DNA of 64,000 bases. Source: Isoetes taiwanensis (Eukaryota > Streptophyta > Lycopodiopsida > Isoetales > Isoetaceae). How positions within the stretch are numbered: position 1 is the first letter of the stretch; each line of letters opens with the position of its first letter. The notes beneath the pieces are model-generated. The model was given only the letters and a program-made list of their open reading frames with translations. It had not been told where the DNA came from and made no database searches. Made by a program: the position numbers and the translations under genes. The stretch lies in NCBI GenBank assembly GCA_021234155.1, contig JAJEKV010000049.1, positions 10,578,292 to 10,642,291 on the forward strand, read 5' to 3'. This document shows positions 23,117-64,000 of this stretch, piece after piece.

Positions 23117-24547
23117 TTATACTCCGCTGTCTTCGCTTTCAGTTGAATGGCTACCGAATTGTTGATCAATTAGTTCTCGTCTTGATTTATCATATAAAGT
23201 AGTGGCGAGAGCATTTCTACGAGCAGAATTTGCTATAGAAATTGCTGCTGAATACCTTGGTGCCTTCGCAATAATAGATGCAACTTCGTTAGGATCCTGC
23301 TCGAGAGATCTTGTTAATGCTTCCATGGGGTTCAAGCTCGCACCTGCTACCCTGTGCAAACCGTATGCTGCAGCCCTCACCACTTCACTATTAGGAATTT
23401 GTAAGCGCTTGACTCGCTCTGAATATTTTTTACTTTTCCTTTCTAATTCTATGGCTGCCTGTAATTCAGATTTCGTTTCATCTATCCAATCGTTATTGAA
23501 CCCATTATGTCTCACACAAAGATTATGCAGGATTAGACAAGCAGCAACAATATCTGAGACTTTGTCTAGCTGCTGTCATTTCTCTTCAACAAGATTCTGA
23601 ATCTTGACTTTAACATGCCAAAGGTGCATTCCACATGCATTCTTGTGCTAGATTGAATATAGTTCCAATGATACTCCACTCTGCTTAGTCCATCTTTATG
23701 ACCCTTGAATGGCGAAAGCATCCAAGGCTGTGGAGGGTAAGCTGCATCACCTACTAGACAATAGTTTCCTAAGTGCCCAGCTTTGATCCTCTTTACAGCT
23801 TCACTTTGCTCAAACAACTTCCAATCGTGAATGCTGCCTGTCCAGCCAACATCATAGTTCCATATGCAACAATCTGCGCTCATAATGACTTGTAACAAGA
23901 CTGAATGGAAGCCCCCTTTCAAATGTTATAATCTTGCACATTTTCAGTAGGTGGAATAATCGGGAGATGACTCCCCAACAACAAAAGGGCCCCCCTTTCA
24001 AACGTTCAAACTGACGTGATAAGGTATGCATACGATCAGGAGAAGGCCATTTTAAATCTTGCATACTCTCCTTCACCGCTTTGCAGAATTCGCATATAGC
24101 CCTCTGTGCCATTGTATACCCCACACTATACTGATCTGCAATTTTCTTTATAGCATTCGTAGCTGCAAGTCTTGTCAGAGCAATGCAAATCCTTTTCTCT
24201 ACAGATATAGCTGTGCGCATATATGTATCCCGACGAACAAGTGACGGGCCTAACACACTACATACATATTGAAATGTGGCTCTGGACAATCGTTGTCTAC
24301 TCTTAAACATGTCATCTGTGTAAGACGATAAAAGAGTTGCTTCCATAAACCTAGAGGGTCTGCTATAAGTCCAAATATGCGGAGCTCCTCTTATTGTTCT
24401 ACCGTTAGTGCAGCTTATCAAGTATGAACACATTTCCATCCAATGAGCATAGAGGGTGAATACCATTGTGGGTGAAGATTCCTCAACCAATGCTTTCAGA
24501 ATGTGGTACAACAACATTGCCCACAAGATCTTCACCATCCTGTCCAT
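23117..24547 (-). pseudogene. PIF/Harbinger-type transposase (HARBI1-like, DDE_Tnp_4), frameshifted
   Basis: The ATG at 24547 opens a frame with the N-terminal helical region (FKSRQRLSRATFQYV, then VEKRICIALTRLA and IADQYSVGYTMAQRAI). Near 24010-23930 the frame is shifted; the expected conserved segment (LPIIPPTENVQDYNI) is in another frame. The catalytic core resumes at 23922-23566, with the second and third acidic residues visible in CLVGDAAYP and MHVECTFGMLKSRFRIL and an acidic residue in the GWTGSIHDW block. Another shift leads to 23515-23117, a charged C-terminal tail after a LILHNLC-type motif. The enzyme cuts and pastes its own DNA. With at least two frameshifts this copy is dead. Confidence 0.85.
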
Positions 24548-25400: not shown

Positions 25401-27133
25401 GCCTACAATATTTTGAACAAGGATTAAATAAAATTAAGCAATCCTACACAGAATGATGAATTGAATCAATGGAAATGTATGAAATGAATCAATAGAAATG
25501 TTACTGTAATCGGACAAGATTTTAAGAACTTAACTACCTACTTGAATTCTTTCGGAAATCCTTGGAATCTGTATTCATGCAAGTCTGGGTCTGTAAAATC
25601 TTACATCATCGACCAGGAGGTAGACCAGGAGGCAGAGGTGCACTCGGATGCCCCAGCCGAAGTGCTCGAGGAAGAAGGAGACGAGCAAATCCAGAGAGTC
25701 CTCGAGCAGATGGAGAAGGAAAAGCAAGATAAGGCGGAGCAAGAGCGAGAGGCCAAAGCACACGAAGAGCAGGGAGCCGATTCCCGAGCCAAACCCCGAG
25801 CCAACCGACGAGGAGCAGCTCGAGGCGTGGATCCGGATGCACGAAGCAAAAGAGCGGCGCCGAGCGAAGCGGAGAAAAAGAGGAAGAGGGAGGAGAAGGA
25901 GGCCAACGAGGCCGAGGAAAAGAAGAAGAAAAATGGCAAACACGTGGAGGAGCCCAAGAGGAAGTTGAAGAAGACGCCAAACATCAAGGTAGTCATCAGG
26001 GAACGGCCAGCCGACCAGCCAGCCTCCTCTGATGATTCTGACGACGACGACTTCAACCCAAACTTGGAAGTAGCCAGCAGGAGAAGACCCGCCAGCCCAA
26101 GAGGAGGGAGGACAGAATCAGCAAGTACAGGCACCCTTGCCTTACCCGACTTGGGATAAGGACTCGAAAAAGAAGCCGCGACCTGGCCGGGAGTCATACG
26201 TGATAGACTCTATCCGGGTCTATCAGAAGAAGCTGAAGGAACATCAGCAGTACATGAAGAAATGGGAGGCCCACAACTCCTATTACTAGGAGAATAAGGT
26301 CACATTTGTCGCAGGTGGATGGCCATCAAAGAAGCAGACCCTAAAGCCGCCGCCAGAGAATCCCAAACCTCCAAAGAAGCCGCCGAAAAGAAAGCCCAGT
26401 CGAAGCTGAATCGAGCAATCAGGGAGATCCGGCACTTCCAGAGGAGTTTCGGCTTCCTTATCCCCCGTGCTCCCTTCGCCAGGCTCGTAAAGGAAGTCGT
26501 GCAAGAGTATACAGCACCGAAATGAGAGTAACAAGTGAGATGCTGCTAGCCTTGCAAGCACAATTTCATTAAAATGAGAAATTTCGTGATTCCAATTAGG
26601 GATGAAAATCCCTTTTAATCCATTTTATGACCATTTTTTGAGCAATTATGGCGCAATTTAGCAAAAAAAATGCATCTAAAGTGCCATTTATTGGCGCCAT
26701 TAATATCAGAGAGGGGGGAAAAAACAACAAAAAAAAAAATACTGCAACTTAAGTTAGCAAGTTTTACCTATTTTACAGGAAGAAGGGCATCATTAACTTC
26801 TGAAATTGACAAATTTACACATCAAGAAAATTTGTTTATGAAGCTAAAATATCTGAAATTTGTTGCTGAATTGAATCAACGCCATTAGTAGGATCATGCT
26901 TTTCTTTGCCAACATTCATAAGAATGTCAAATCCTGCCCACTAAATGCCTCTTAAGTCAAAGTTGTAAGCCGCATTTTGAATCTCATCGTGACTAAAATC
27001 TTCAGTGGTACCAAGCTGGACGAAGGTGACTCCACAGCAAATCTCCTGGCATACCTGAACGTGCATTTGCTATAGCAGACCAAATGCATGCTGGTGAATG
27101 CATCCTCAACATATTTTTTTTGCATGCTAGTGA

Positions 27134-27310
27134 ATGCAAATGGCGCCATGGCGCCATTTGCATCCTCAGCATGCTTGGAAATGGCACCTTGAGGATGCAA
27201 CATGGTGCCATTTACACCCCCAGCACCCAAAAAAATTTCCACCCAAAAAAAAAGGGTGTTGGGGTGCAAATGGCGCCATGGCCATTTGCACCATGCAAAA
27301 AAAAAAAATC

Positions 27311-27349
<39 letters not shown>

Positions 27350-28780
27350 GAAATTTTTTTTGGCGTTGCGGGTGCAAATGGCGCCATGGCGCCATTTGCA
27401 TCCTCAAGGTGCCATTTCCAAACATGATGAGGCATCCACAGCATGCATTTGATATAACATCTGGATCAAATGCATGGTGGTGAATGCAAATGGCGCCATG
27501 GCGCCCTTTGCATTCCTCAACATGCATTTAATAAAGCAAATCATGCTAAGGATGCATGCCATTTGCCTCCTCAATATGCATCAAGCAAACATATATTCAA
27601 GAAACTGGTGCTATTTGACTAGGAAAACTAAAAAATCAAGTAAAAGAACACCTACCTTTGCCTTGGAGACTTCCCTTCATGATTCTTGATATCTTTAGTG
27701 TCTAGAGTGATGAAAACAAAGGCGCTTAAGCGTTGCTATACCAAGCATCGCACTAGGGCGCCAGGCCATCTAGCCGCAGGGCGCCGGGCGTTGGCCTTAG
27801 GGTCCAATGGGCCATCTAGCGCCAGGGCGCCAGTGGCCGAAAGTTGGCGGATCGGTCTGGCCGCAGCGAGGGAAGCGTGGGGGATGTAGGCGGCGCAAAG
27901 CGGGATGTAGGCGGCCTTCAGGCCATCTAGCGGCCGCTTAGCCGGGCGCCAGGTCCAATAAAATATCTAATAGCTTGGCCGGCAGCGGTCGGCTGTATCG
28001 TAGTCGCAGCGCGGGAAGCAGCGGAATGTAGGTGGCCGGGCGGGTGGGTATGCGGCTTCGTGGAAGGCGAGCGTAAATTTAAAAAATGCCCGCCTAAATT
28101 TGGAAACCCTCGGGCCCAAATTTGAAAGCCCTCCGCCCAAATTTGAAATTCAAAATTTGAAATCCCAAATTTGTTGTTGCTGCTCGACATATCATTTCTT
28201 TAGGCGCTTTGTATAGATCCTTCTATAGGCGGATCACGTGGTCTTCGATGGTTCCATACCGATCGGCACTTCTAGGCTGCTTCTTGCGCCATTTATTTTC
28301 GTGTAACATTAGTCGCTTTGCACAGAGGGTTTTTGGGCGCTTCTTTTTGAGGCGCTGCAATATTCTTACAAGATCCATATAAAAGGTGACCACCATATCC
28401 AGGTAAGTCTTTCTATATGCATCGTCTTTTTGTTAGAGCCATTCATCACATGTATACATCCAAATGGAGCCATTTGGGGCACCATTTGGAGCCCCTCAAA
28501 TGGCTTCATGGCTTCATTTGGGGGGCTGCCAGGGCGTATACCACCCAAATGGCCATTTGGAGGGTGCCGGGGGTAGGGGTATACCCCCAAATGGCTTATG
28601 GAGCCATTTGGGGTGCCATTTGGAGCCCTCAAATGGCTCCATGGCTCATTTGGGGTGCCAGAGGGGGCGGTATACCCCTCAAATGGTGGCATTTGGGGGC
28701 CATGGGCGGCAGGTATACCCCCACATGGCACCTTGAGGATGCAAATGGCGCCATAAATGCCGCCATGGCGCCATTTGCAT
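27134..28780. repeat. Family of perfect palindromes built on ATGCAAATGGCGCCA
   Basis: The 15-base arm ATGCAAATGGCGCCA followed by its own complement forms a perfect 30-base palindrome at 27134-27163. Close versions lie at 27265-27290, 27373-27400, 27484-27513 and, with a longer centre, 28739-28780. The copies next to the A run (27300-27346) and the T run (about 28789-28815) are in opposite orientation, so the whole block is also a large inverted repeat. Confidence 0.85.
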
Positions 28781-28784
28781 CCGC

Positions 28785-28815
<31 letters not shown>

Positions 28816-29010
28816 GGTGTAGGCATACCCCCAAATGGCTTCATTTGGGGGTGGTTGGGGAGGGTATACCCCCATTTCGGGTTAGTTGCTAGGGGAGTAT
28901 ATATACCCCCAAATGGGGGTTGGGGAAGGGAGGGGGGGGGGGGGGCCGTATACCCGGGGGCACCCCCATGGAGCCATTTGGGGGCGCCAACGAGGGGGCA
29001 ATTATACATG
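28450..29010. repeat. Array of CCAAATGG / CCATTTGG and GGTATACCC units
   Basis: Short units such as tatacccccaaatggc and gccatttgggg alternate in both orientations for more than 500 bases, making a dense set of potential hairpins. ORFs in this stretch are by-products of the repeat. Confidence 0.75.
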
Positions 29011-29204
29011 CCATTTGGGGTAAAGAGAGCCACCCTTCATGGCAAGGATGTTGATCCATTGAATTTAGCAACGAGAGATCACGAAATGTGGTGCCTATTG
29101 AACTTCCAATCATATGCTGGGGTGCAGATAACATTGGTGAAGCAGTAGGTGCATTTATTCAGTTGCCAAAGAAGGATGTGAGACTGGTTGAGGCTTGTAT
29201 GCTA

Positions 29205-29450
29205 TAAATATATGTATGATACATGTGTACTACTCACGTGTATCATACACCTGCAGAAGGTCTATAAATCTATTCATGTATCTTAAAAATATATGTATGA
29301 TACATGGGTGTCATACCTGTGTACCTAACACATGCAGAAGGTGTATGATACCGAGTAAATATGTTTTCTACATATTTCATGGTGGTGTATACAACCCCTG
29401 CATAAGGTCTATGATACAGGGTACTCAACCCCTGCATAAGGTCTATACAA
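29205..29450. repeat. Imperfect tandem repeats with tgcagaaggtctat / tgtatgatac
   Basis: About five imperfect units containing ctgcagaaggtctat or ctgcataaggtctat alternate with atgtatgatacatg-type palindromic pieces. Confidence 0.6.
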
Positions 29451-29773
29451 CCCCCAAAATAAAAAAATTCCAGTTTACTAAAAATTTTCCCATTATAATG
29501 AAATTGTGCTTTTGCATGAAGTAGCGGAGCTTTTTGAAGACCCCACGGCATGCACAGTATACGCAAAAAGGGTAACCTTAATGAAGAAGGATATGCAACT
29601 GGCGAGTCTTATTAAAGGAGAGCCTTATTAATTTTGTAAATCATAAATTTTGTGAATACAAAGTGTTTTTGAGTAAACTATAAGTGTATAAATCTACTTA
29701 ATTAAGTTGAATTAGCAAGTAATGGCTTTTGTTTCAGTCAAATTGGTCATATTTAGACCGATTAGTGAGAGAT

Positions 29774-30043
29774 GTCTCACATTGTGCGCCAGAGCCCCAA
29801 CCTAGAATTTAGGTCGAGCCCTGGGCGCACAATGTGAGACTTTCAGCCCAAAAGTTGTCCAAAACACCTCCAAATCGACGAAGTAAGGGGTCAATCCTGC
29901 CTAACTCGATGAGACTAGTATGTTTTGACCCTTAGTTTATCCAGATTGGACAAGTATTGACCAAATTGAGCCAATTGTCTCACATTATGCGCCAGAGGCC
30001 TAACCTAAATTTTAGGTCGAGCCCCAGGCGCACAATGTGAGAC
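29774..30043 (+). promoter_or_regulatory. Two long hairpins in the leader between the histone ORF and ORF1
   Basis: GTCTCACATTGTGCGCC (29774-29790) is the exact complement of GGCGCACAATGTGAGAC (29824-29840); the 33-base loop holds an inner cctagaatttagg. A second pair with one mismatch is at 29977-29993 and 30027-30043, with inner cctaaattttagg. The same layout recurs at 39194-39458 and 63486-63763 with different bases in the stems. Confidence 0.8.
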
Positions 30044-30235
30044 CTTCCAATATTTTCTCTACCATGCTACACCCAATTGACCTTTAGTTTGTTGCAATAG
30101 GTTCATTAGGCAGTCCTATTCATGCTCAAACCATCAAATTGGCTTCCCAATCCTCATTTGGACCTCAAAATAGGTCAGATTTGCCCAACCCCAATAGCTT
30201 TCCAGGTCATCCAAAAATTAGGGTTTTCCCTTGTC

Positions 30236-30243
30236 TATAAATA
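30236..30243 (+). promoter_or_regulatory. TATA box upstream of ORF1 (copy 1)
   Basis: TATAAATA lies about 120 bases before the ORF1 ATG at 30357 in a setting typical of a plant core promoter. TATA-like runs sit in the same place in the other two family copies (about 39648 and 63075). Confidence 0.65.
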
Positions 30244-30356
30244 GGCCCCCATTTCTCACTTAGCATCCTACAAGTTTGCTCCCGACCTTCTAGGCGATCT
30301 TCCAGCTCCCTGAGGCGCTTCTGCATCTGTTTATTAGTCCAACCCACTCTAGATCC

Positions 30357-31903
30357 ATGGCAACTGCTGACTTTAGGCGATGGTACAGCGCCAGTGCCCA
30401 TGCAGCTGAAGCCGATGTCAATGCAATTTTTCAAGTTTTCCGCAAAGAGGTAGATGTCCAAGCCACGTTGCAAGCAACCCCAGCATACATGGAAGTCATG
30501 TCCGAATTTCAAGCTAAGGTAGGACCGACCCTAGTACAACTCCCCCCTTGCACATGATATTTTGTCCCTAGGCAGTCCCTCCAAGCAGCCTTAGGTGATG
30601 TCCCAAACATTGCCAAATATCTGACCAATAAAGCTGCTAGGTTGCCAGACTACATGGTCTTGACAGCTAATAGAAACAAGTATTTTTCCTACACCGCTGC
30701 CCTAGCCATCTTCCTTTCCCACCGGGCCCAGAACCCCATTGGTGAAACCTCTATCCCTCCCATGGATGTAGATCCCTTGGCCTCTTCAGCAGATGATCAG
30801 CTCTTACTGCAGTACCAAGCGGAACAAGAAGGAAGAGCAGATGATGAACCGGTCAACTTCGACGGCGGCGAAGACTACGCCGAAGCTTCGACCCCGGCGA
30901 AGAGCGCCGGCTAGCGAGTAAGGTGATGCCAATTTTCGAACAGGACCGGCGGACCCTCAGAATCGCTCCCCCGCTCGGGTTAGGTATCACAAGCCTAGCC
31001 CCCATCATCATCGACGGCCAGGAGTACTTGCTCCTTACTGACATCCAGAACCTCCCCGAATGCAGAGACAAGGAGTACCGACTCGACGAGTTGCTGTATC
31101 TTCTGTGGCAACAGTCAGATCTGGATGACTTCATCGACCGGAAGGCTTCCGACTTTCCGATCCAGGTCAGAGAAGCCGACACCTATACAGGGAAGTCGAC
31201 TTCAGATATTCAGGCATACAGTAGCATCCGCCAAATGATTGAAGCTCGAGACCTGCCGTCTGAAGAAGAATTTTATGCCATTCAAGAGCGAATGGGGATC
31301 CGAGGCAAAACCACGAACATTTTGATGCCGAGTTCTTTGACACCAACCCCCATAGGTGTTCAGAGAAGAGGCGAGATCGACCTGCGGCGAATTACATCGA
31401 CAGTCAGGGACTATGGAGAACTCACAGAGATCGACGTCGATGAGTATGCAGGGAGACACAGAGCCGGAGTCCGAGGAGACGACGAGTCAACAGCAGCGGG
31501 CCGGGACAGGTCGCTGAGGTACTATCTCTCTCTGTTGACGGATGGGAGAATAGCGGTAATTCACCGCAAATTCAGCCCAAGGGGCGAAGAAAGAGTGTTC
31601 ATGCACATCGCACTCTCGGGCTTTGGCAGGCATGCTCGGCTGGGTCCAAACACCGACTATGCCGTCTTAGTCAAGAGAACGATGACACTTGACATCTTCG
31701 ACTTCGATATGCCCTATCAACGGCAGGGAAGACTAGCAATGACCGCGGCCTACACGTCCGACCGCAGGGTAGAAGACTTGGTGCAAGCCTTGCAGGGCAG
31801 AACATCAACCAACATCCTCAGGAACTTGGGACGCTCCATAGGAACGGCCCAAGTTAAGAAGTTTCTTCAGGATAACCCATCCTACCGGCGATTTCAAGAA
31901 TAG
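30357..31903 (+). pseudogene. ORF1 of the gypsy family: uncharacterised protein conserved between copies
   Basis: The ATG at 30357 starts MATADFRRWYSA. The frame meets a TGA at about 30555, continues in the same frame as YFVPRQSLQAALG to about 30914 (acidic end), then shifts to the frame of 30926-31903. The second half has APPLGLGITSLAPIIIDGQEYLLL, LPSEEEFYAIQERMGIRG, DGRIAVIHRKFSPRGEE and NILRNLGRSIGTAQVKKFL. I recognise no known domain. It aligns closely with 39759-41272, and its first half aligns weakly with 63085-62780 on the minus strand, so it is a real protein carried by the family. It is not gag, since a separate gag follows. Two breaks make this copy non-functional. Confidence 0.65.
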
Positions 31904-32057
31904 TTAGACTCTTGATCCCAGAGGCTTTGTATTTAAGATATTATATATATAAATAAATGTTTTGTTGATGTATTTTGTTCCACAACTATACCAACAAAAA
32001 CATATAATGCAATAGAACCAATAAAACTAACCGTAAGGCCATGATTTACTTGTGTAT
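31904..32057 (+). other. Probable intron or spacer between ORF1 and gag, with conserved acceptor
   Basis: AT-rich sequence ends in tgtgtatgcag just before the gag frame (ctagaggccc). In copy 2 the same AT-rich stretch ends in tgtgtatgcag followed by ctagagcacc (about 41445). The gag frame here has no ATG at its head (GTG codon at 32052), which fits an exon joined by splicing. Confidence 0.5.
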
Positions 32058-32648
32058 GCAGCTAGAGGCCCAGGAACAGCCGAACAGGAACGGCGAACCC
32101 GTAGAGATGAACAGACTCCGCCTAGGCCGCACCCAGCAAGGAACCTATATGAGGCATTTGGCCCCATGACCCCTGAGGAGGAAAGGTCGCAGATGAGAAT
32201 GGACCTTGAGCAAATAAAGGCTTTCTTGGCAGCACAAGCGGGAGATGGCCCAGACAACAACGTCCAATTGTCGGAAGCACCATCTCAGAAGACGAGGAAG
32301 GACAAGAAGAGGAGCAAGAGAAGGAGGTCCTCCAGCACGAAATCCTCCGACTCAAGCTCGGATTCGGACTCCGATTCCGAGGAGGAGGTAGAAGAGATCC
32401 AGGACCGTAGAGACGGCAGACACAGAGACACAAAGGCCTCAGATTACCAGAAGAAGGTAGACTCAGCATTAAGAAATGTATGGAAGGCCAGAAAGCTTGA
32501 GCAATTTTCAGGCGACAGCAGGTCAGGCATGGAAGCAGAGGCTTGGCTTGATGAGATGAGTGAGTATGGTAACGCCTATGGTATGAAGGACAAGGACAAA
32601 GGCAGGGTGGCAACAGCCAACCTGAAGGGAGCAGCACGCATTTGGTAG
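32052..32648 (+). pseudogene. Gag of Ty3/gypsy chromovirus, truncated
   Basis: About 199 codons: an N-terminal region rich in Arg/Pro, then a Ser/Asp/Glu and Lys-rich stretch (residues about 80-120). Next comes the start of the Retrotrans_gag capsid domain, LEQFSGDSRSGMEAEAWLDEM, ending GAARIW at a TAG. The rest of the capsid, the CCHC zinc knuckle and the protease catalytic Asp are absent. The next frame starts just downstream inside the protease C-terminal part. Gag would form the particle and package RNA. Confidence 0.75.
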
Positions 32649-32654
32649 AAGGGA

Positions 32655-35600
32655 ATGGTTGAGATGTTGAAGCTGAAACCGTTGAAGTCAAAGCCGAGAC
32701 CCGTGGTGTTAGCAAACGGGGGAGTAAGGCACACGGCAGGCAAGAGGATAAACTTCGACATTGACTTGCCGGGAATCAACATCCACATGGGGGCCGAGGT
32801 GATGAATATTGGGAAATATGACTTGATCATAGGAATGGAGTACCTTGGTCCAGCAGGAGCCCTCATTGATTGTGGGAAGCGGAAGGTGATCCTCACAGCG
32901 CCCAACGGCAAGATCATAGAGATCACAAGTAAAGAATTTGTCCCCATCATGCAGTGCATGTCTAGTAAGTGGCTGCTCAAGTGCATAAAGGGCGATCAGG
33001 TAGCATACATCTTCAAGCTTGAAATCAAAGAGCCCGAGTCAGAAGAAAGCAAGGAAGAGAAGGTGCTCAGCAAGTTGCCCAAGCAGATAGCTAAGTTGGT
33101 CACGGAGGTCCACGATCTCTTTCCAGATGAGATCAAGCAGCTTCCTCCTTACAGGGGAGTCGAGTGTGAGATAGCACTCGAACCAGGAATGAAGCCGATG
33201 AGCAAGGCTCCATACAGGATGACGACGCAGGAGCTGACGGAGCTAAAGAAGCAATTGCGGGAGTTGCTCGATCTAGGCTTAATTAGACCTAGCGTCTCAC
33301 CATTTGGGGCACCCATTCTTTTTGTGAAGAAGAAGGATGGCAGCTTGAGGATGTGCATAGATTATAGGCAGTTGAATAAGCACACCATCAAGAATAAGTA
33401 TGCGCTCCCCAGATCGGATGACTTGATGGATCAGCTCCAAGGGGCAAAAGTCTTCTCCAAAATTGACCTAAGGTCGGGCTACCATCAAATCAGGATCAAG
33501 GAAGAAGACATCCACAAAACGGCTTTCAGAACCAGGTATGGGCATTACGAGTTCACGGTAATGCCATTTGGGTTATCAAATGCCCCAGCAACATTTATGA
33601 GGCTCATGAACGACATCTTCAGGGAGTTCTTGGATACTTTTGTGATAGTATTCTTTGACGATATTTTGGTGTATAGCAGATCCTTGGAAGAACACGTACA
33701 ACACCTGAGGAGAGTGCTCGAGAAGTTAAGGAGGCACCAGTTGTACGCCAAGTTGTCGAAGTGCCACTTCGCAACGGAGAAGGTGGAATACCTGGATCAT
33801 GTGATCTCAGCAGAAGGAATTTCGACGGATCCTGCCAAGATTGAAGCGGTCATATAGTGGCCGGCACCAAAGAATGTCCATGAAGTCAGAAGCTTTCTTG
33901 GCCTAGCAGGGTACTACAGGAAGTTTGTGAAGAACTTTGCAAAGATAGCGGCCCCGCTAACGGACTTGACGAGGGCGGAAAAAGTGAAAGATTGGGCAGA
34001 TCATTGGAACAAGAAAGCCCAAGCAGGGTTTGAATTGTTGAAGGAAGCTTTGACAACCGCCCCCGCCCTGACCCTGCCGGACCCAGAAAAGGACAAGCTT
34101 GTGGCAACAGACGCAAGTAAGATAGCCACAGGTGCAGTGCTCATGCAGGAAGAGCGGGTAGTAGCCTACGACTCCAGGAAGATGAACGACGCCGAAACGC
34201 GCTACCCGACGCACGACCAAGAATTGCTTGCAGTTGTCAGAGCACTAAGGATTTGGAGGCACTACCTGTTGGGGAGGAAGTTCCAATTGGACACAGATCA
34301 TCAGAGCCTCCAATATGTGTTCACGCAACCACATCTCAACCTGAGGCAGCAAAGGTGGATGGAGTTCCTCGAGGAGTATGACTTTGATATAGTCTATAAG
34401 CCGGGGAAGCTCAATGTGGTAGCAGATGCGCTTTCAAGGCAACCCCTGACAACAAGAGTGCACTGCAATGCAATTTTGACGCTCACTAACGACTTCGGAA
34501 AGAAGATCGAAGAATCCTTGCCATCAGATGCAGACTTCAAGGAAGTGTGGGCAAGCTTGTGCAAGGAGGCAAGAACAGATAAGGAGAGGGAAACCTTCAA
34601 AAAATTTAAGAAGGAAGGTAACCTTTTGTACCATAAGAACAAGTTGTGTGTGCCGGAATCATCAGGGGTGAGGAAGTTGATTCTCCACGACACCCACAAC
34701 AGTCCAATAGCTGGCCACACAGGATTTATGAAGACATATTTCAAAGTGCGCAGTAGCTACTATTGGCCAGGAATGAAGAAGCAGATAGTTCGCTACATCA
34801 AAGAGTGCCAGCTGTGTCAGCAAACGAAGGCAGAGCAGCTTCGAATTCCAAGAGCCTTGGAACCCTTAGCGGTGCCGAACGCTAAGTGGGAGGTCATCAG
34901 TATGGACTTCATAACAGGGCTCCCGAGTATGGATACAGCGAAGCTCTTCACCAAAGAAATCTTCAGGCTTCATGGCATGCCGAGAGAGATCATCTCCGAC
35001 AAAGACCCGAAGTTCATGAGTGCCTTTTGGCAAGATCTTTTTGCGACGATTCAGACGAAGCTGCCCATGAGCACGGCCTATCATCCTCAGACGGATGGGC
35101 AAACAGAGCGGACCAATAGAATTTTGGAAGAGTATGTGGGAAGAGTATATTCACTTAGTGGAGTTTGCATATAATAGCACCAAGCAGGAATCATCCCAAA
35201 TGTCGCCGTTCATGATCAACTACGGCTACCAATGTCTAACTCCAGACACTTGGCACAATCCCGTGTCAAAAGTAGAGGTTTCGCAGCAAATGTTGGCCGA
35301 CATGCAGCAGCTGGTGGAGGAGGTTCGAGGATATCTTCTCGCAGCAAGGAGTCGAGAAAAGAGCATCGCCGACAAGCATCGGACAGTCAGAGAGTTCCAA
35401 GTTGGCGACGACGTGTGGCTCAAGATCAAAGTGAAGTAGGCGAAGCTCTGCATCGGAAATTGTAAGAAGCTTGCTCCAAGGTGGGCTGGACCCTTCAGAA
35501 TAGTCAGGAGAGTAGGTAATCAATCCTACAAGTTGGATCTACCAGCACACCTAAAGATTCATAAAGTCTTCCACGTGAGTTTGTTGAAGAAGCATACTCC

Positions 35601-36692: not shown

Positions 36693-38283
36693 TGTGACGT
36701 TCCAGCACAGTATACGGTCCCAGGACATATATTGTACTGCCTTGTCACGCGTACACGCCATCCCGACTGACATGTACGCCGACGTGTAGCCAAGCAGGTA
36801 GCACCCTAGGGGGCAACTTGCTAGGTGTGTACATTTATAAATGTGCACATTTACCCATGTGCACATTTATCCAAGTGCACACACTTACCCATGTGGACAC
36901 TTTATGCCACCTAGTTAATAAAGGCAAGTGGGCCACACCAATTATCCCACATGCTTAGAGGGATAATGGGAAACCCTAGCCCTAACCCTTTGCCTATTTA
37001 GGTAGAGGAAACCCTAACTTGCTATTTTCGTCCATTAGCATTCTAGGACTCTGTTTCACTTGCTCCAGGAGCCAAACCCACCTCCCAGACTCTGTCTGAG
37101 CGATCTAGCTCATCAGTTTCCCCTTCTAGCTTCATCTTCTAGCAGTTCAGCAGGTTGGTCGAGTTCAGAACAGGAGGAGCGAGCCAAGGATCAGGTATTT
37201 TGTCAATTTAATAGCCTAAACCGTCTCCCAGTCATTGAATCAGTAGGTTTAGCCTATTAAATTGCCCATAGCAGCCATTTAGATCCCCAGATACCAAGCT
37301 CTAACTAAAGAACCTAACTCTATGATATAGATCAGATCTTGCTCTTTAGTTTTCTGTGATATGTATGACGATGTATCTCTGTGAACTCATTGTATTGGGA
37401 AGGGGGGTAGAGACCTTAAAGCCTGGTAGTTGATGCTCCTAGTTAGCCTCTTTAGTGCACTATAAATTCGGCCTGTGTACAGGAGCCACACCTGGTTGTG
37501 GGTGAAGGGGCCAGACTGGCTCATAAGGAGGTTCATGTCCTGACTCATGAGAATGATCCCTCTGGTGTGTAAGGCCTACCGGGGATCCCTGTGGACTAGG
37601 TCTAATGGCTTGCCACTACGTGTGGGCGAGGCATGGGCTCGACACCCGTGGAGTGATGTGTCACTCTCCATTGGGTTCAAGTCGAATAAGGGCAGTGGCC
37701 CTCTAGTCGCCTTGATTTAGCATGCAGATCTCTGGAGGGAGTGATCCCTACCTGCCCCATCGGAACTGGGGAGATGCAACCCAGGAATAGCCCCTTTGGC
37801 TATGCATCCAGCGGGCTACAGTCAGGTCCCAACACTTTTCAACCTACTCTGCAAAGTGTGCACAGGAGGGGCGGATGGAGTGGACTACCCTTACCCATGC
37901 TCTTATGCCAGCCAAATCCATTGCCATGAATTCTGTCTGCAATGACCTCTGGAGACCCAAGCCGTCAGTCATCCCCTTGAGTCTGAGCCTTGGGTAGGAT
38001 TCCCCATGTGATGTATTGATCTCTGTCTATGCAGATATGTGATGTGCCACCCTTCGAGGTGGTAGATGATATTGATGTTGTATACTGACATGTATGTTTA
38101 CGCTCAAGAGCTAGGGGTCGGCCCTGAGGGAGACAGGGCAAATGACCCCTTCATTCTTCCCACTGGAACTCATCAAGGTTGCAATGATACGTGGAGGGCC
38201 CTGTATCAGTGTGGAGCTGGTATAGGGGATGAACTCCTATTTGTATACGGTGAGAGCACCATATATGAGTAGGGGACGTCACA
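36693..38283 (+). repeat. LTR of family L, complete, plus strand
   Basis: It starts TGTGACGTTCC and ends GGGGACGTCACA, near-perfect inverted ends with TG...CA. Length is 1591 bases. A likely promoter (tgcctatttagg) lies near 36992, with gtgcacattt repeats upstream (36830-36880). It follows the chromodomain pol of copy 1 and precedes the leader and ORF1 of copy 2, so it appears to serve both. Relatives are at 3131-4632, 6355-7320 and 52607-54288, all minus. Confidence 0.85.
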
Positions 38284-38465
38284 GAAAGAAAGAAAGAATG
38301 ATTTTTATCGTCCACTGAGACCAATCGACCTATGGGACCCAGAAAGAGCGCAGCAAACTTATTACTGGCCGGGTTAAAAAACCCCCGCCCCGAAGGGTTT
38401 TCGAGGAAAAACTGTGGCAGTAATAAGAATGATGTATACATCATCATGAAATAAATGTACATATA
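38284..38465 (+). other. Leader sequence after the LTR
   Basis: After a short gaaagaaag run, ttatcgtccactgagacc ... cctatgggaccca matches, in complement, 55925-55965 of the other remnant. No tRNA-like primer-binding site is obvious at the LTR junction. Confidence 0.5.
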
Positions 38466-38469
38466 CATG

Positions 38470-39198
38470 TCAAGTGTGTGCCCGAGGACATAGCTGATCT
38501 CGCATGTCCATAACCTCCTGAAGGTATGATCCCAGCATCCGTACGGAAGTCGTGCTCAATGTCACATATAGCAGCTGGTCAGGCCTGACCAACACAGCAT
38601 AGCGCGTCTGGATTCGATCATATGCTGGGCAGCTTTGAAGAGTATGAGATTCATCCTCAATGACTCCCATTTGGCAGCATTGACGGAGCCTGTTCTAGCA
38701 TGGCTCACCAATCCATCTCCCTGTCTCAATTCGAAGATGGTGTGCTCCTATGTGAATGAAGGCAATGAGTCTGCGCCTTTTCATAGGCAATTGGGCATGC
38801 AGGTAGCATTGCAGACAGCATTGCAGGCCTCGCTCCAATATGGGATTTATGTGGTGCTGGTAGTGTGTTGTCTTGACTTGTTCAAGGGCACTGGCATTCC
38901 AAAGCTTTCTGAGGAAGCAAGCGTCAAGATATGGCCTCAAGCTATGGCGATCTGCCTCTGTTTGCACATGTATGCACCTGTGTTCCTATACGTTCCATCT
39001 AACCAACCATTGAGCTCTTTTTTCCCTCCAACAGGCCTTGAGGCGCTGGGGCCCCATTGCCATGATATAAGCTAGGTTAGGGAGACGAGCATCGTCTATA
39101 TTGACCATCTTCTGAAAATAGACAATGTGGCGATCAAGGGCCGACCTCTGAAGAGGCAAGAATCCCATAAAGTGATCGAATAAATTCCCACCCCTCAC
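38470..39198 (-). pseudogene. LINE ORF2 C-terminal fragment with zinc-ribbon motif
   Basis: On the minus strand, 39198-38986 encodes RSALDRHIVYFQKMVNIDDARLPNLAY. After frame changes, 38967-38470 gives LRIETGRWIGEP, a TAG, then RQCCQMGVIEDESHTLQSCPAYDRIQTRY. That cysteine and histidine pattern (C-x-C ... EDE-x-H ... C-x-x-Y) is the usual end of a class of non-LTR retrotransposon ORF2 proteins. It has separated the LTR leader from the leader hairpins of copy 2. No poly(A) is seen at its 3' end. Confidence 0.6.
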
Positions 39199-39460
39199 AG
39201 AGTGCGTAAGACCGCTTTCAGAAATTTTGAACGGGACTCTCGCGCACTATGTAAGTGTTTGGCCACTAATCTATATCTAGACAAGTCCAAAACTAGAAAC
39301 TAAAGATATAGCCCGGCTTAACTCCGTGAGATAAGCATTATTCTATCCTCATACCAAAATTTGAAGTCATCTAGGACCCAAACAGGAGCCCACCCCTCAT
39401 AGAGTGCGCTCAGGCCCTTTTCAAAAAGTTAGAACGTGCCTGTCGCGCACTGTGTGAGTG
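39194..39460 (+). promoter_or_regulatory. Two leader hairpins, copy 2
   Basis: CTCACAGAGTGCG (39194-39206) pairs imperfectly with CGCACTATGTAAG (39243-39255). CTCATAGAGTGCG (39396-39408) pairs imperfectly with CGCACTGTGTGAG (39446-39458). Position and spacing match copy 1, though the stem bases differ. Confidence 0.6.
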
Positions 39461-39645
39461 CTCCGAATTAAATCGCCATAACTCACTCAAACTACCTCTA
39501 AATTAGATGAAATTTATTGCAATAGGATCATTAGGAAGTCCTTTAGATACCCATAAACTTAGACTACCTATCAAATACCTAGTAGGACCTTGAAGTGATA
39601 GACATATCCAAATCCAAAAAAAAATCCACAAATTAGGGTTCTGCC

Positions 39646-39657
39646 AATAAATATAAC
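39646..39657 (+). promoter_or_regulatory. TATA-like box upstream of ORF1, copy 2
   Basis: aataaatataac lies about 110 bases before the ORF1 ATG near 39759, matching the position of TATAAATA in copy 1. Confidence 0.5.
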
Positions 39658-39758
39658 CACGACCCTCATTTGCATCCCACAATCTCAACTCCAAGGTGAT
39701 TTTCCTGTTCACAGAGACGCTTGCATATCTGTTTGTTAACTCCATCCATATCAACGCA

Positions 39759-41272: not shown

Positions 41273-41475
41273 ACCAAAAAAAAAAAATCTATTAATTATT
41301 TTAATAATATTATATCTCATGAATATATTTGTTGATATTATGAATGTTTTTTTATATGTTTTGTCCCCACAACTATATCATCAAACAACCAATGCAACAA
41401 CAAACAAAAGCTAATCATAAGAGTGCAATCTAATGTGTATGCAGCTAGAGCACCCATAATTTTGCTTCGCCAAGG
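41273..41475 (+). other. Spacer or intron between ORF1 and pol, copy 2
   Basis: An A run, AT-rich sequence and then tgtgtatgcag at about 41444, as in copy 1. Gag is wholly absent here. Confidence 0.5.
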
Positions 41476-52606: not shown

Positions 52607-54288
52607 TGTGGCGTCCCCTACTGTTATCACGGTGCACCCAGGTATACAAACAGGAGTTCATCCCCCCTATACCAGCTCCATCTTGTCTGAGCCCTCCACA
52701 ATCATTTGCACTTTTAATGAGTCCCGGTGGGAAGAGTGAAGGGTCATTTTACCCGTCTCTCCCTCGGGGGCCTACCTAGGCTGCGGCGTAAACATACATG
52801 TCGGTATACAACATAATCACATATCCACCTCGAAGGGGTGGTGCATCAACATCTGCATAAACAATGATCAGCATCATACATAAGGATCCTACCCAAGGCT
52901 CGGTTCGAAGGGGATGGTGGCGGCTTAGGTCTCGAGTTCATTGCGGCGAGAATTCATGGCAATGGATTTGGCTGGCATAAGAACATGGCAATGGGTAGTC
53001 CACTCCATCCGCCCCTCCACATTGCACACTTTGCGAGTAGGGTCAAAAGTGTTGGGACTGGCCAGTAGCTTCATGGGGAGCATAGCCAAAGGGGCTATTC
53101 ACGGGTTGCATCTCCCGGTCCCCGATGGAGCGGTAGGGATCACTCCCTCAGGAGATCTACATCTTGACTCAAGGTGACTAGAGGGCCCTTTGCCCTTGGT
53201 TCGGTGAACCCACTGGAAGGTGAACCCCACCCCACGGGTGTCGAGCCCATGCCTTGCCTCTGGTGGCAAGCCATTGAACCTAGTCACAATGATCCCCCCC
53301 AGTAGCACTAACACACCATAGGGATCGTTCAAGAGTCAGTACATGAACCTCCTTCTTAGCCAGTCTGGCCCCTTCATCCACAACCAGGTGTGGCTCTTGT
53401 ACACAGGCCGAATCTATATGGTGCTAGAGAGGCTAATCTAGGAGCATCTACTACCAAGCTTTAGGTCTCTACCCCCCTTCCCAATACAAGGAGTTCATAG
53501 AGATACATCATCCATATACTTCACAGAGAACTAAAGAACTAGATCTAATCTACATCATAGAGTTAGGTTCTTTAGTTAGAATCTGCTATCTAGAGATCTA
53601 GAGGGCTGCTATGGGCAATTTAAGAGGCTAAACCCTCTTGATTCGATGGTCTGAAATGGGGTTTAGACTATTAAATTGCCTAAATACCTGATCTTTGAGT
53701 TCCTCCTCCTGACCTGAGCTCGACCATCCTGCTGAGATGCTCGAATCAAGGAAAACTAATCTTTCGCAATTCTCTCGACCCATGAATGGGAGGCCGGTTT
53801 TGACCCTTGGGGCATCAAAGCGAGCTCTAAAACCCTAGAAACGAAAAATGGGCAAGTTAGGGTTCTCCTACTTAAATAGACAAGGGGGTTGGCTAGGGTT
53901 TCCAATTATCCCCTTTAGGCATGTGGGATAATTGGAAATGGGCCCACTTGCCTTTAAGGGCTAGGTGGCCAAATGTGCCCACATGGAAATGTGTGCACCC
54001 AATTGTGCTCACATGGAAATGTGTGCACATTAATGAATGTGCACATTAATTGCACCTATGGGTATGGCCCACTTGGCATAAAGTGGCCACATGGGAAAAT
54101 GTGCACCTAAGTGAATGTGCACATGGTTTAATGTGCACATTACTAAATGCACACTCCTTGCAAGTTGCCCCCTAGGGCTACTAGCCTGGCTACACGTTGG
54201 CGTTACCGTCGGTCGGTCGGGGTGGCGGTAATGATTTTGGCGGCATGCGATATCGTCCCGGGGCGTATCTTCGTCTTTGAACGTCACA
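52607..54288 (-). repeat. LTR of family L, complete, minus strand
   Basis: It starts TGTGGCGTCCCC and ends AACGTCACA, and is followed at 54291 by ctccccacctt, the complement of the polypurine tract. Length is about 1.68 kb. Internal blocks match 36693-38283 in complement (tctaccccccttcccaatac near 53465; gtgtggctcttgtacacaggcc near 53390). Many gtgcacatt units lie at 53960-54150. A promoter-like ctatttaag lies near 53870 on the minus strand. Confidence 0.85.
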
Positions 54289-59149: not shown

Positions 59150-62100
59150 GATTGGTATGTGCGTTCAGAAATACATCTTCGAGAATAAAAAGGAGGGCAT
59201 GTAATCACATGGCTTCATTACTTCAACTTTTGTATCCTCGGTGTAAATGTATACTGCATCATCAACTAAAACTTCAGCTTAACTACAAGACATCGTGGAT
59301 GTATTGGTATTTGTAATACTATGTGATGCAAAAACAATGGTTTGTCATTCAAGAAGTTTGTTCAACTGCCTTCCAATATGTTTTAAGGTCCATTAGGATG
59401 TTCAGCCAAAATGGTTGTGAAATAACAAATTTCCTGTCTTCTAAAACAGCTAATATAAAAACTTTCAAGGACAAGGTACAAAAGCATCTAATTTCTTCAT
59501 ACGAATTTGTCCCATAGTTAATCTTTGAATTTCATTGTAGTTCTTTCCCCCTCTACAATGGGATTTTTTTTTTTGTGTTTTTCCTCAATACTAAGTCTTC
59601 TTAAAATGTCTGTTTTCACGAGCAGTTTTATAAATCTTTGGACTAAAGGTAATAAAAGGGCCCTTTTTAGAGGGATTTTAGAATTTTATAAATTTTCAGA
59701 AGGAATCTTCCAAACGCACTTCTTAAATAAGTGCGTTTCATTTTAAACCTTGTTTTACATAATTACAATTACTACTAGAGCTATTAGGTCTCCCTTGTGC
59801 CTCCCTTCGAGTTGCGCACCTACTCCTTGGCAATGTCATCGGTGTTCCTCCTGGTGCAATGGTGTTGACGATCTATATCCTCCTATTTGTACGTCGGCTC
59901 GTACTCCGGGGTAACTTGTTGATATACTTGGATCCTCCGGTATTTGTCAGCTATGGCACAACACGCTTTGCATCACATTCTAAATAAAGGTGTGCTGGTC
60001 ATTGATGCTTCGACATTTCGGTCTGCTTCCTGATCCTGTTCTCGGGCTGTAATTGTTCTCCCCTTCATGATACTTGAAGCTATTTGGAGGCGTCTCTTGA
60101 GGTTATGCGCGATTCCTTTGGCTATACTCCTCTGGAATTGTTCTCTTCTGTAGTTGTTCTTTGAATCGTCCATCCTTGGGTTCACCAAGTTGCATGCAAG
60201 TCCGCGTGCAAGTCATCGGCTCGCCTCGTCTCACCTAATTGCTTCTCCATCGAGCTTCCAATCTTCCTTGTTTGATCCCCTCGATCACATGGCTTGGGCG
60301 TTGTCACGTTGCACAGCGCTATGCCGTCTTCTTGTCTTGAGGTACCTTCCGGTGGCTTTGATTGTGCTCGTCAGCTTTGATCCTCCTGTTGCCTCTAGGG
60401 AGCTCGTGGAAGAAGTCGGTTGCTAGCACTTCTCCAGCTTTCAGTTCCTGACCTTTGCATGTCGGTCTCTCTGGCAAGTAAAGCATCATGGTTCTCCTCC
60501 CTGCTGGCTATGTTGTCGGGGTGATGGATCCCTATATCTGCGCAGCTTGACCCTTGAGTTGAAGAAGTACTTGCCTTAGATATACTCTTGTCGTTGAATA
60601 GCCTGGCTATTATCTTGAACTCTCTTTTTGCCGAAGGTGCTTCAGTTGCTATCCTTGTCGTTAAGGTGTCGAGTGCTTCTACCTTGGGCGTTTGATGTCC
60701 CACCTGTCGGAGATACGATCGACTTCCTTTCTTCTAATTACTGGTAAGAGTACCTGACGAAGCCATCACCTAGTTGTTGAAGCATATCTCCTCGTCGCGG
60801 TGCCTTTCGTAAGTGCCTCTCCATGTAATATGCGTGTCATAGCGCATCACCCTATATTTCCACAAGGTGGGATTATGGTCGTCGAGATGTTGCCTTCTTA
60901 GTTGGCTCGTTGATGTCGGGTCGTTCCTCCCTCTATTGTTGAGGCCACTCGTGTCATAAGTTCGTCAAGTGTCGCCGCTGCCACAAGAGGTAGTGTTGCG
61001 CCCTGATGGTGTCCTGGTGCAACGCTGATGATCTTGACATGACCGGTGTTGTCTCTTGTTCTAACATTGGGTGGCCGAGCAGTCTTCTACTTGAGGGCAT
61101 TTCCCGAAGTGTTTGGAGTCGAAGGTTTGCTTGGGCTCTGGTCGTTTCTCCCTCGTACTTGCTCTTCCATTTTGGTCTTGGGCTACAGTTGTGCTTCCTT
61201 GCTTCCTCATTTGGCAGTCGAAGTGAAGGAGCTTCCTGATCTAAGCGCTAAATCCGTAAAACATGACTTTAAACTCATGTTTCTCCACTATATCTGTGAG
61301 CACCCGAGATATACAATAGACATATGCGCATTTACACTGGGATTTTTAATTCATCCACTTTTTCAAAACAACTACGAATATCTACTTAAATATTTATACT
61401 CCTTTAGGGTTTTCCCTCCTCGATCGCGTTTGATTCTTCGGTTTTGCTGCATCTTCTTCGTTCTGGTTGACTCCGGGATTCTTTGAGATGCTGCTACTAT
61501 TGTTGAGCTTCATGTCTGATCCGAGTTCGTCGCCACAAGTTGCGAAGAGTGTTCGTCGATGTGATCCCTTGAGAAAGATGCTCCTTGTTAATGCATATGT
61601 CCGTCGTGAGGAATGCGGTGACCGCTCAACGTCCCTACATGCGGTGTGTCGTTGCAAGGTTGCCGATGTGCAGTGCCTTTGATCGCTTGAGTAGGATCAC
61701 CTGGCTGTTGCAGTTGGGCATTCTTGAATGTCTTCGAAGCTCTGAGATTGTGGTTGGTAGGCAGGCATTGTCATTCCTCTGCCGGGTTGAATTTACGAGT
61801 CGCGACTCACATTTGCTTGGGCTTTGCTTCATTCGGTGCCTCTCACGTGCACGGAAGTGTGGTCATCTCCATTGCCCCTACCATGGCTCCTTCAGTGTCG
61901 CCTTTGCGTGATTAAATTACTGCTTCCGTCTCCTCGTCACTTGGGTCTTATCCATTCGAGTCTCGCACTCCTTGGCTGACGTAGTAAAGTCGTCCTTCCT
62001 TTGGTTTCTAGATGTTTCTGGGTCCAAAATTCTTGTTTGAGCAGAATATTCTCCTCCTTGATCTTGCCCCTAATGCTGATATAGTAAGTTGGAGATGTTC

Positions 62101-62229
62101 CTTCCCTGATATCGTCTCCTCCCTCGTGGTCTCTGGCGGTGCAAAGGGGCTGGAAGCTCATCTTGGTCAGCCTTAGGTGCTTTGTGGTTGCCTAGCTTGG
62201 TTTACTCCTTTTGTTGGCGTTGCATGACA

Positions 62230-63085
62230 TTAAGCTTGGCTGCTGGGCTGCAAGGTCGTGGTGATCTTCCCTCCGGTTTCTATACGCTCCTGTGTCGCCA
62301 TTACTTCTCTCCTCGACAGAAGATTATGCCCTCTGGCCCTAGCTCGTGATGCTAACGCGGCATCGATGTCTAACGTCTTCCTGCGCCTGTATTTTGCTGC
62401 CTTGCGTTCTTCCATTTGAAACTCATGTGCGTCGAGTTGGTGAAGGCGTCGAGATCCTCTTTCTGATGCGAGCTCGTGGACGTGGTAGCCGGGAGGTTGA
62501 CATCTAGAAGAATTCTTGATGCTGTTGGTTACCAAATATTCTTCCCATTTGCTGAAGATTGGTGATAGGCCGGTGGTGTTCTGTTCTACTCGTTTGTCAG
62601 TTGAGGTGTTTGTCGTTGTGCTTCCCTCTCTTGGATCTGCCTTTTGGATCTCCTCTCCTTATCTGTCTGTACATCGGTTGGGACCTTGATGTCTTCAAGA
62701 AGTTGCGCCTCTAGCTCTTCTGTGGCTCTGGCCCTGTACTTCGAAAGCAACGCTCGTATATCCTAGAGTCTAAGGGTCTACTTGAAGGCCTCTCCTACAA
62801 CATTCTGGGCTCTATAAGCAAGCAAGATGGCTCGAGCAGCATTACTGGAGACATATCTATAATCTACAAGTCTATGGACATTAGGACGTGTGGTATGGCA
62901 TGAAATGAGGGTTTGTTTTGCAAGACCTCCATGATGTTTGAGGCATACTCTAAGGTCTTAGCAAAGTTGGTTTGAGGGAGGGGTCCAATATCTACACATG
63001 GAGTGACTTGAGCAGCTCTAGACTCTAGCTCCTTTCTAAGTATCCTGGCAATAGGGAGTGTCAATGTGGCGGCTATATAAGTCAA
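62230..63085 (-). pseudogene. ORF1-like and downstream charged ORF, divergent copy
   Basis: 63085-62864 contains IARILRKELESRAAQ, GPLPQTNFAKTLEYA and IPHVLMSIDL. Another frame just after contains AARAILLAYRAQNVVGEA, which parallels AALAIFLSHRAQNPIGET of copy 1 at the same distance. 62535-62230 is a 101-codon Arg/Glu/Lys-rich frame (QMEERKAAKYRRRKTLDIDAALASRARARG in pieces). Stops and frame changes abound. The ORF1 similarity is by eye and moderate. Confidence 0.45.
63073..63081 (-). promoter_or_regulatory. TATA-like box upstream of ORF1, third copy
   Basis: The complement of ctatataag reads cttatatag, at the same place as in the other two copies. Confidence 0.45.
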
Positions 63086-63485
63086 ACTCTATTAGAAGGA
63101 CGCAGAATTAGGTCAGGGTTTACACCTTGGGCATGAGCAGAGGTGATGTACGAAGAGTTGGACTTGGGTTGATATGCTGAGGTCTAGATGACTATAACAA
63201 AGGGGTGTTCTTGGGCATTTCTATCTAGGAGTAAGGCATCAGATTTGAGCCGAGAGCAATACTTGCGAGCTACTAATGGGGTATGTTTCTATCTACAAAC
63301 AAACTACAGTTTGGAAAGACAATTCAAGGGTTTGAGCAATTTTGGTCATTTTGAGATGGGGTTTGACATTTCTATCCTAATTTGAGGTCATAAATGGATT
63401 CTAGGCCGTCTAACGGTCCTATTGCAACAAATTTCAGGCGATTTGGAGCTCTGTAGCTCAAGTTATGGAGGTTCAAAGTTTGGAG

Positions 63486-63763
63486 GTCTCACACATTGCG
63501 CCCAGCCCGAAAATGAGATTTTCATTATCTGTCCTGGCGCGACGTGTGAGACATTGGCTCAAAATGGGTTAAACTTGTCCAATTTGGGTTATATAAGGGT
63601 CTAATCCTACTTATCTCGTCGATTAGGCAGAATGGACCCCTTATTTGGTCGATTTGGAGCAGTTTTGGGCACTTTTGGGGCATGGTCTCACAGCATGGTC
63701 TCACCGCGTTCTTGCACCAGATAATGAACTTTTCATTTTCTGTCCTGGCGCGACGTGTGAGAC
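63486..63763 (-). promoter_or_regulatory. Two leader hairpins, third copy
   Basis: GTCTCACACATTGCGCC (63486-63502) pairs with GGCGCGACGTGTGAGAC (63536-63552), with two mismatches. A weaker pair lies at 63698-63717 and 63747-63763. Inside both is atgaaaa-type sequence flanked by cctggcgc. Spacing equals that of copy 1. Confidence 0.65.
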
Positions 63764-63904
63764 ATCCTCTCAAATTGGCCTAGGATATCTGCTTTGACTA
63801 AAACAAAAGCTAAAACTTACTGACTCAACTTAATTAAGTAACTTTATACACTTATAATTTACTCTAAAACACTTTGTATTAAACAAATTTTATCATTTAC
63901 GAAA

Positions 63905-64000
63905 TTAATAAGGCTCTCCTTTGATATGACTGGCTAAGTGCATATCTTTCTTCATTAGAGTTACTCCTTTGGCGTAATCTTGTCTGCGGTGTTGAGTCTT
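63905..64000 (-). pseudogene. C-terminal part of the CENH3-like histone, second copy (runs off the window)
   Basis: The minus strand reads [23 protein letters not shown] and a stop, nearly the same as the end of the copy at 29560-29626. Just upstream a one-base difference breaks the frame against that copy. The rest lies beyond the window. Confidence 0.65.

Follow-up and report, generated by a model that had tools for sequence, protein, structure and literature searches.

The stretch analysed here, 64,000 nucleotides of Isoetes taiwanensis contig JAJEKV010000049.1 (positions 10,578,292 to 10,642,291 of the forward strand; hereafter the window), contains the body of a Ty3/gypsy retrotransposon preceded by two separated pieces of a histone H3 fold. 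Scored alone, each piece passes the Pfam cut-off of 26.4 bits for PF00125, with 30.4 bits (E 5e-07) at 26403-26522 and 28.8 bits (E 1.6e-06) at 29512-29628, which rules out a chance match to histone, and the two are parts of one H3 fold, as the original prediction had proposed from the alignment of these regions. The window fragment is almost certainly a broken member of a chromovirus lineage whose first open reading frame (ORF1), encoding a protein of ~410-460 residues, ends in an H3 histone fold. The order of the element is 5' long terminal repeat (LTR), tRNA-Met primer site, ORF1 with H3, leader, ORF2, gag, protease-reverse transcriptase (RT)-RNase H-integrase-chromodomain and 3' LTR. The lineage has two forms, here referred to as TEcan and TEcen, and the window belongs to TEcen.

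The histone fold of the window and its relatives in the genome

The window copy is 5'-truncated, frameshifted and split by an insertion of ~2.95 kb. In tblastn comparison with the open TEcen frame at C1078 the homology begins at 25605, corresponding to residue 64 of that frame, and its residues 64-232, 233-319, 330-375 and 375-390 match successive stretches of the window; a short alpha-2 piece in a different frame (26519-26557) follows the first fold piece. The inverted repeats of the insertion match at 26 of 29 bases (score 23 vs at most 16 in 200 shuffles), an imperfect duplication of ~9 bp, read by eye only, flanks it and its interior holds poly-A/poly-T runs and repeated GGCGCCATTTGCATCC motifs.

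A second C-terminal copy with the same KGEPY end had also been predicted, and it is found on the minus strand (63976-63908), where 23 aligned codons show 9 synonymous and 3 non-synonymous differences from the first copy. Its 3' flank is 70% identical to 29537-30204 and the same leader follows both copies (29537-30204 / 64000-63312), again as predicted, so that each consists of the histone, the common leader and then ORF2 or ORF2 remnants. The LIPxAPF signature noted in the window copy is real and kept in most TEcen relatives read, the exception being L052 with LFPCAPF. A longer loop 1 and a five-residue gap, seen in the joined read-through of the window copy, are absent in the relatives and were dropped as CENH3 features because they are caused by damage to this copy.

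When the genome (1,658,258,908 bases in 1110 contigs) was searched with the Pfam histone profile, at least 150 matches were scored. In 15 of 150 the alignment begins at profile position 2 and these we take as host H3 genes; the canonical fold was found in all eight that were fetched and the full canonical tail is displayed in seven. The other 135 begin at profile position 4 or later, many of them in long open frames of up to 494 residues, and the 30 fetched all have an element-type H3 fold (L032 is cut short). The 40-residue alpha-N piece of the window gave at least 150 matches including the window itself, with 69-100% identity and in frames of up to 454 residues. First-look candidates (8704 with PF00125 and 4476 with the 40-residue piece) are unverified and give no copy number, and the match lists for fold and RT are best-scoring samples of far larger sets, the counts from them being lower bounds.

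The histone form and the pol form co-segregate. Combining 104 window-type RTs with 150 TEcen folds gave ten same-strand pairs in which the fold precedes the RT by 1-10 kb, the window being one of them and seven being spaced 4.0-4.2 kb; 105 D-type RTs and 135 TEcan folds gave 15 same-strand pairs, 12 of them at 4.1-4.4 kb. The crossed combinations within 1-10 kb numbered 0 and 0; differently arranged, a TEcan fold lies up to 50 kb away from four window-type RTs. Most elements appear in neither the RT nor the fold list, because these are best-scoring samples.

Structure of the two element forms

For TEcan, ten stretches of 20 kb were read (elements A-J). Downstream of the H3 ORF there are matches to gag in all ten, to RT in nine (not F) and to integrase in eight (not F or H). 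The original prediction had proposed looking for copies between LTRs, and paired LTRs of ~1.6 kb do enclose the H3 ORF and the rest of the element in eight of the ten (not F or H), with exact 5-bp target duplications around LTRs and H3 ORF in six (A, B, C, D, I, J); in E four of five bases agree, and none was demonstrated in F, G and H. The sequence GTGGTATCAGAGC, which we take to be the plant tRNA-Met primer site, follows the end of the 5' LTR in all six elements where this end was matched (A, D, E, G, I, J), and the LTRs of a pair differ at 3.4-9.7% of sites in the six elements measured. Pfam domains in the order RT, RNase H and integrase were found in element E and in the window, and the chromodomain PF00385 scored above cut-off in the three TEcan pol ends scanned. 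Of the three cage aromatics one seems, as read from the letters, to be retained in the KWKHL motif of this domain, in agreement with what the available part of PMC6317226 describes as type II chromodomains.

TEcan ORF1 consists of ~290-340 N-terminal residues without Pfam match followed by a complete H3 fold, with scores of 125.8-144.1 bits in the five ORFs scanned, and a single PF00125 stretch per ORF1 was found in six of six (five TEcan, one TEcen). The complete modifiable tail (K4, K9, K27, K36) is missing, the tail being replaced, and element J begins MARTKGTK. N-terminally, members G, L046, L047 and L065 hold the motif ARKS, the sequence context of H3K9 and H3K27, which may be left over from the H3 tail or imitate it; the motif is noted for one TEcan subfamily (L021, L046, L047, L065). 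In IMG/VR no relative was confirmed for the N-terminal domain, nor for the histone, and a search with full-length ORF1 was dominated by other H3-containing proteins, which among the matches listed covered less than half of the query.

For TEcen, seven ORF stretches were read (L049, L051-L056) and five N-terminal parts aligned. ARTKQTAR is invariant in these five and is followed by a charged linker of ~310-330 residues, and the K9 position is K in one of the five. Outside the alignment L056 reads ARTKQTTR and L054 has no N-terminal part; in L049 the Met preceding ARTK is changed. The fold reads REIRHFQRSFGFLIPRAPFARLVKEV...KGEPY and varies little. It lacks the longer loop 1 of the CENH3 type, five of seven folds having 91 residues, as in host H3, and the other two deviating only at the C-terminal end (L054 extends beyond the usual end to 94, L056 is frameshifted close to it). 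No homology was found on comparing the N-terminal parts of TEcan and TEcen. An LTR and primer site lie upstream of TEcen ORF1 in all three cases tested (C1078, C1045 and C1056), and the window provides the 3' end, with body, polypurine tract and a 3' LTR matching, at 93.9%, the C1045 LTR that precedes primer site and ORF1. At C1078 (346719 to ~356773, L049/L050) a reverse-oriented LTR pair of TEcan type interrupts the TEcen leader, which resumes after it.

Element body and neighbouring features in the window

The features belonging to the two TEcen copies are collected in Table 1. ORF2 gave no match in a Pfam scan and its single-sequence structure prediction was of no use (mean pLDDT 33.5), but homologues are present elsewhere in the window (40306-41269, 62580-61530) and weak matches at the corresponding place in five of the ten TEcan elements (A, B, F, G, J; best E 1.9e-12).

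Table 1. Coordinates of element features in the window
Feature	Position	Strand	Evidence
ORF1 remnant of TEcen type: linker and start of fold, frameshifted, ~first 60 residues gone	25605..26557	+	tblastn, PF00125
DNA-transposon-like insertion splitting the histone fold	26556..29511		inverted repeats 26556-26584 / 29483-29511
C-terminal part of histone fold with stop	29512..29631	+	PF00125, 28.8 bits alone
Leader between ORF1 and ORF2	29632..30922	+	common to second copy and second gypsy
ORF2, 326 aa	30923..31903	+	open frame
gag fragment	32052..32648	+	tblastn matches in 10/10 TEcan elements, E 1.4e-10 to 5e-28
Protease remnant and RT	32655..33857	+	RVT_1 6.3e-40; 69% identical to element D
RNase H and integrase fragment, broken before end	33927..35174	+	RT_RNaseH 2.3e-35, Integrase_H2C2 6.9e-20
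Polypurine tract AGGTGGGGAGAA	36681..36692	+	read immediately 5' of LTR start
3' LTR (TGTGACGTTCCA...GACGTCACA)	36693..38284	+	93.9% identical to C1045 LTR; strand as body
LTR, probably 3' LTR of second element	52607..54031	-	76% identical to C1078 LTR over 1477 columns, inverted
Leader and ORF2 remnants of second element	61530..63907	-	ORF2 matches 62580-62212, 61748-61530; leader 64000-63312
Second histone copy, 23 codons aligned inside window	63908..63976	-	tblastn 87% identity, E 4.4e-09

At 39194-42715 the lineage has a second gypsy, which is degenerate and comprises leader, ORF2 and RT. Its leader is recognised by the match 29776-31000 / 39194-40371, and upstream of the element no convincing histone match was found inside the window. 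Another element remnant, at 3131-6026, is an inverted copy of the LTR and the pol-to-LTR stretch. The other features include a 521-aa pentatricopeptide repeat protein at 11150-12715 (PF01535 and PF13041, 12 stretches each), probably a host gene for organelle RNA, an open frame at 23852-24547 on the minus strand, which we take to resemble a PIF/Harbinger transposase, and dense palindromic repeats at 58183-58606.

Constraint, origin and possible role of the element histone

Comparison of copies, which had been proposed as a check, gave low values for the TEcan fold. Among 21 subfamily pairs of seven copies the proportion of differing synonymous sites (pS) is 0.48-0.93 and that of non-synonymous sites (pN) 0.015-0.144, and the ratio of non-synonymous to synonymous substitution rates (dN/dS) is 0.015-0.055 in the seven pairs with estimable dS. 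Between elements A and F pN is 0.015 in the fold and 0.147 in the N-terminal part at equal pS, and between the main TEcan subfamilies it is 0.40-0.51 in the N-terminal part vs 0.06-0.14 in the fold. For the TEcen fold dN/dS could be estimated in 10 of 15 pairs and ranges from 0.045 to 0.358, with the maximum in the pair of lowest dS. Judged by these substitution patterns, the H3 folds of the elements look strongly constrained.

When residues were counted in 31 TEcan folds (29 full-length folds obtained by H3 match and two by RT), C110, H113, A114, K115, R116, T118, M120, D123, L126, R129 and I130 were kept in all of them, as were K56 and K79. All six TEcen folds keep H113, R116, T118, M120, K122, D123, L126 and I130, and five of six C110, A114 and K115. 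The roles presumed for these residues, in H4 pairing, the H3-H3 interface and DNA contact, are those of the corresponding residues in nucleosome structures.

In the main tree of 36 rows and 91 columns, which leaves out eight rows of a first 44-row tree, some of them long branches, TEcan forms one clade (99/97) inside canonical H3 (99/95), and TEcen one clade (100/100) with a long stem beside plant CENH3, at 94/85 (85/0 in the 44-row tree). The approximately unbiased test, applied to groups chosen after the 44-row tree had been seen, gave p-AU 0.036 when TEcan and TEcen were forced together and 0.0605 when TEcen was forced with canonical H3 and TEcan. Two captures are favoured by these comparisons but not proved. 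The original claim of a retroelement with a captured CENH3-type gene stands in so far as an H3-type gene belongs to a chromodomain gypsy lineage as one of its own parts, given the LTR-enclosed copies, the exact target duplications, the chromodomains of TEcan and a histone that looks constrained. The wording CENH3-type holds only in part: the grouping of TEcen with plant CENH3 is not decisive, TEcen has no loop-1 extension and keeps the canonical tip ARTKQTAR, and the TEcan fold is of canonical H3 type.

A single captured H3, from which both TEcan and TEcen descend and which in TEcen became CENH3-like by fast evolution, has by our estimate a little under an even chance. The two forms have ORF1 in the same position and related pol genes, as seen from the RT identity to element D, the beginnings ARTKQTAR of TEcen and MARTKGTK of TEcan element J are alike, and the placement of TEcen with canonical H3 and TEcan was not rejected. 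A single clade of TEcan and TEcen was rejected, only just, and both the grouping of TEcen with plant CENH3 and the failure to find homology between the two N-terminal parts speak for separate origins. The question of one or two captures concerns origin and is compatible with any proposed function.

Eukaryotes silence transposons by marking histone H3. The presence of the gene in a large element family suggests that these elements make their own version of this chromosome-packaging protein, and an element-encoded H3 acting in chromatin is on the whole the best explanation and a rather likely one. ORF1 would be translated from the genomic RNA of the element, and its fold would pair with host H4 and enter nucleosomes, or a nucleosome-like complex on element DNA. 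The long N-terminal part would stand in for the H3 tail, and with the tail replaced the usual H3K9 and H3K27 sites would therefore be missing or displaced; this part may also tether gag or integrase to chromatin. Incorporation of ORF1 into chromatin we judge slightly better than even. A gain to the element by escape from marking of the H3 tail (anti-silencing) or by tethering appears doubtful, and our estimate for it was lowered a little because one TEcan subfamily holds the ARKS motif. That host chromatin receives H3 variants from the lineage, a tail-swapped canonical-like one evading the usual silencing marks and a CENH3-like one biased to or building centromeric chromatin, is improbable; if true, the nucleosome pool of the host would be partly element-encoded.

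Several observations weigh against this best explanation or limit it. The N-terminal domain of TEcan has no relative among 7996 candidates scored, drawn from 5.8 billion proteins. Escape from silencing fits poorly with ARKS in G, L046, L047 and L065 and with the K9 kept in one of five TEcen tails. TEcen has lost residues of DNA contact and modification (K56R, R63P, K79D/S/N, F84V, R129H/Y), and no TEcen element was obtained complete, with two LTRs of its own: no second LTR was found at C1045 in the stretch searched, and C1056 was dropped as a complete element since the primer site follows its second LTR, which therefore belongs elsewhere. The constraint, finally, is overstated because good histone matches decided which copies were fetched, both for TEcan (30 copies) and for TEcen, where long frames counted too. 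Since these had been found by their histone, five elements were taken by RT instead, from the top of the RT list and passing over entries with a linked same-strand fold. Three of the five had the fold where it was expected (open in L061 and L065, broken in L062); L064 is a stretch of another element and L063 matched nothing. Constraint is also seen in L065, which was reached through its RT: synonymous and non-synonymous differences number 27 and 1 between it and G. Between L065 and J they are 51 and 15, and for L061 10 and 5 (vs D), 30 and 10 (vs H) and 40 and 10 (vs I).

Use of the fold as a kind of nucleocapsid, binding or compacting element RNA or cDNA in the particle with no role in host nucleosomes, is unlikely. 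The residues for H4 pairing and the H3-H3 interface would be expected to disappear from an H3 fold working alone, without H4, and these, with the roles presumed above, are kept, even if ORF1 precedes gag and the TEcen linker is rich in charged residues, and viral histones forming nucleosome-like particles are described in the available part of PMC11500106. Still less probable, and in our opinion very unlikely, is a captured H3 gene carried as a passive passenger without use, like many transduplicated gene pieces. Some copies are indeed broken (the window, L062, L056) and the N-terminal part is much more variable than the fold, but the folds of the subfamilies differ at most synonymous sites and at few amino acids, and in A and F the pN of the fold is ~10x below that of the N-terminal part of the same ORF. 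Host debris, a CENH3 or H3 pseudogene lying by chance beside a gypsy element, would fit the truncated, frameshifted and split state of the window copy and its place ahead of gag, the window showing no 5' LTR, but has next to no probability and was rejected because of the LTR-enclosed copies and the histone-pol linkage, with at least 149 further matches of 69-95% identity elsewhere in the genome, a fixed distance to the same pol type, LTRs and target duplications bracketing the H3 ORF of the sister form TEcan, and the constraint on the fold.

Plant chromoviruses have a tRNA-Met primer site, as do the Isoetes elements. Both also have the gypsy order RT-RNase H-integrase and an integrase chromodomain, and they differ in the extra ORF1 with H3 fold before gag, of which the available part of PMC6317226 makes no mention. 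A retrotransposon-encoded H3 was not described in the titles and abstract beginnings among the matches listed, most subscription papers and bioRxiv lying outside the coverage, the closest precedent among the same matches being H3L, which is carried by a hAT DNA transposon of the fungus Pyrenophora tritici-repentis. According to the available part of PMC3538342 this transposon has 26 very similar copies in the reference genome, for which the authors suggest drift. As in Isoetes, an H3-like ORF lies inside the termini of a mobile element and has multiplied, and the insertions in the N-terminal tail and a fold that fully matches neither H3 nor CenH3 can be likened to the Isoetes elements. The fungal carrier is, however, a DNA transposon with inverted repeats, while those of Isoetes are plant LTR retrotransposons with H3 as the first ORF, having LTRs, primer site, RT and integrase in place of inverted repeats and hAT transposase, and occur in two divergent forms whose fold shows signs of constraint.

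Orchid Ty3/gypsy elements with an m6A demethylase domain are alike in having fixed an extra host-type domain, but this is a 2-ODD enzyme and not a histone; the same source, as far as available (PMC9289625), reports 15 unusual LTR-retrotransposon domains from a screen of 121 angiosperm genomes, angiosperms only, and histone is not among the domains named in its section 12. Virus-encoded histones (bracovirus H4, giant viruses) are likewise borne by parasites and act, or are thought to act, on DNA or host chromatin, but their carriers are DNA viruses, and the words 'retrotransposon' and 'retroviru' are absent from the available main text of the review PMC9145170. Unlike the viral histone doublets, Isoetes ORF1 has one histone fold per chain in the six scanned. 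TEcen resembles plant CENH3 (e.g. Coffea P0001) in REIRHFQ and LIPxAPF in alpha-N/alpha-1 and VTLMKKD near the C terminus, whereas the plant CENH3 used have a longer loop 1 and a GGKG..W end and are mostly host proteins of ~130-160 residues. In the Isoetes genome papers (PMC8566536 among them) the word 'histone' is absent from the main text available.

That an element lineage keeps an H3 in which other sequence has taken the place of most of the marked tail points to the nucleosome itself as the object of a direct contest, and it makes testable whether a mobile element can alter the composition of chromatin. The H3 folds of the elements, which evolve under selection of a new kind, also form a natural collection, and they may link retroelements with CENH3-like histones.

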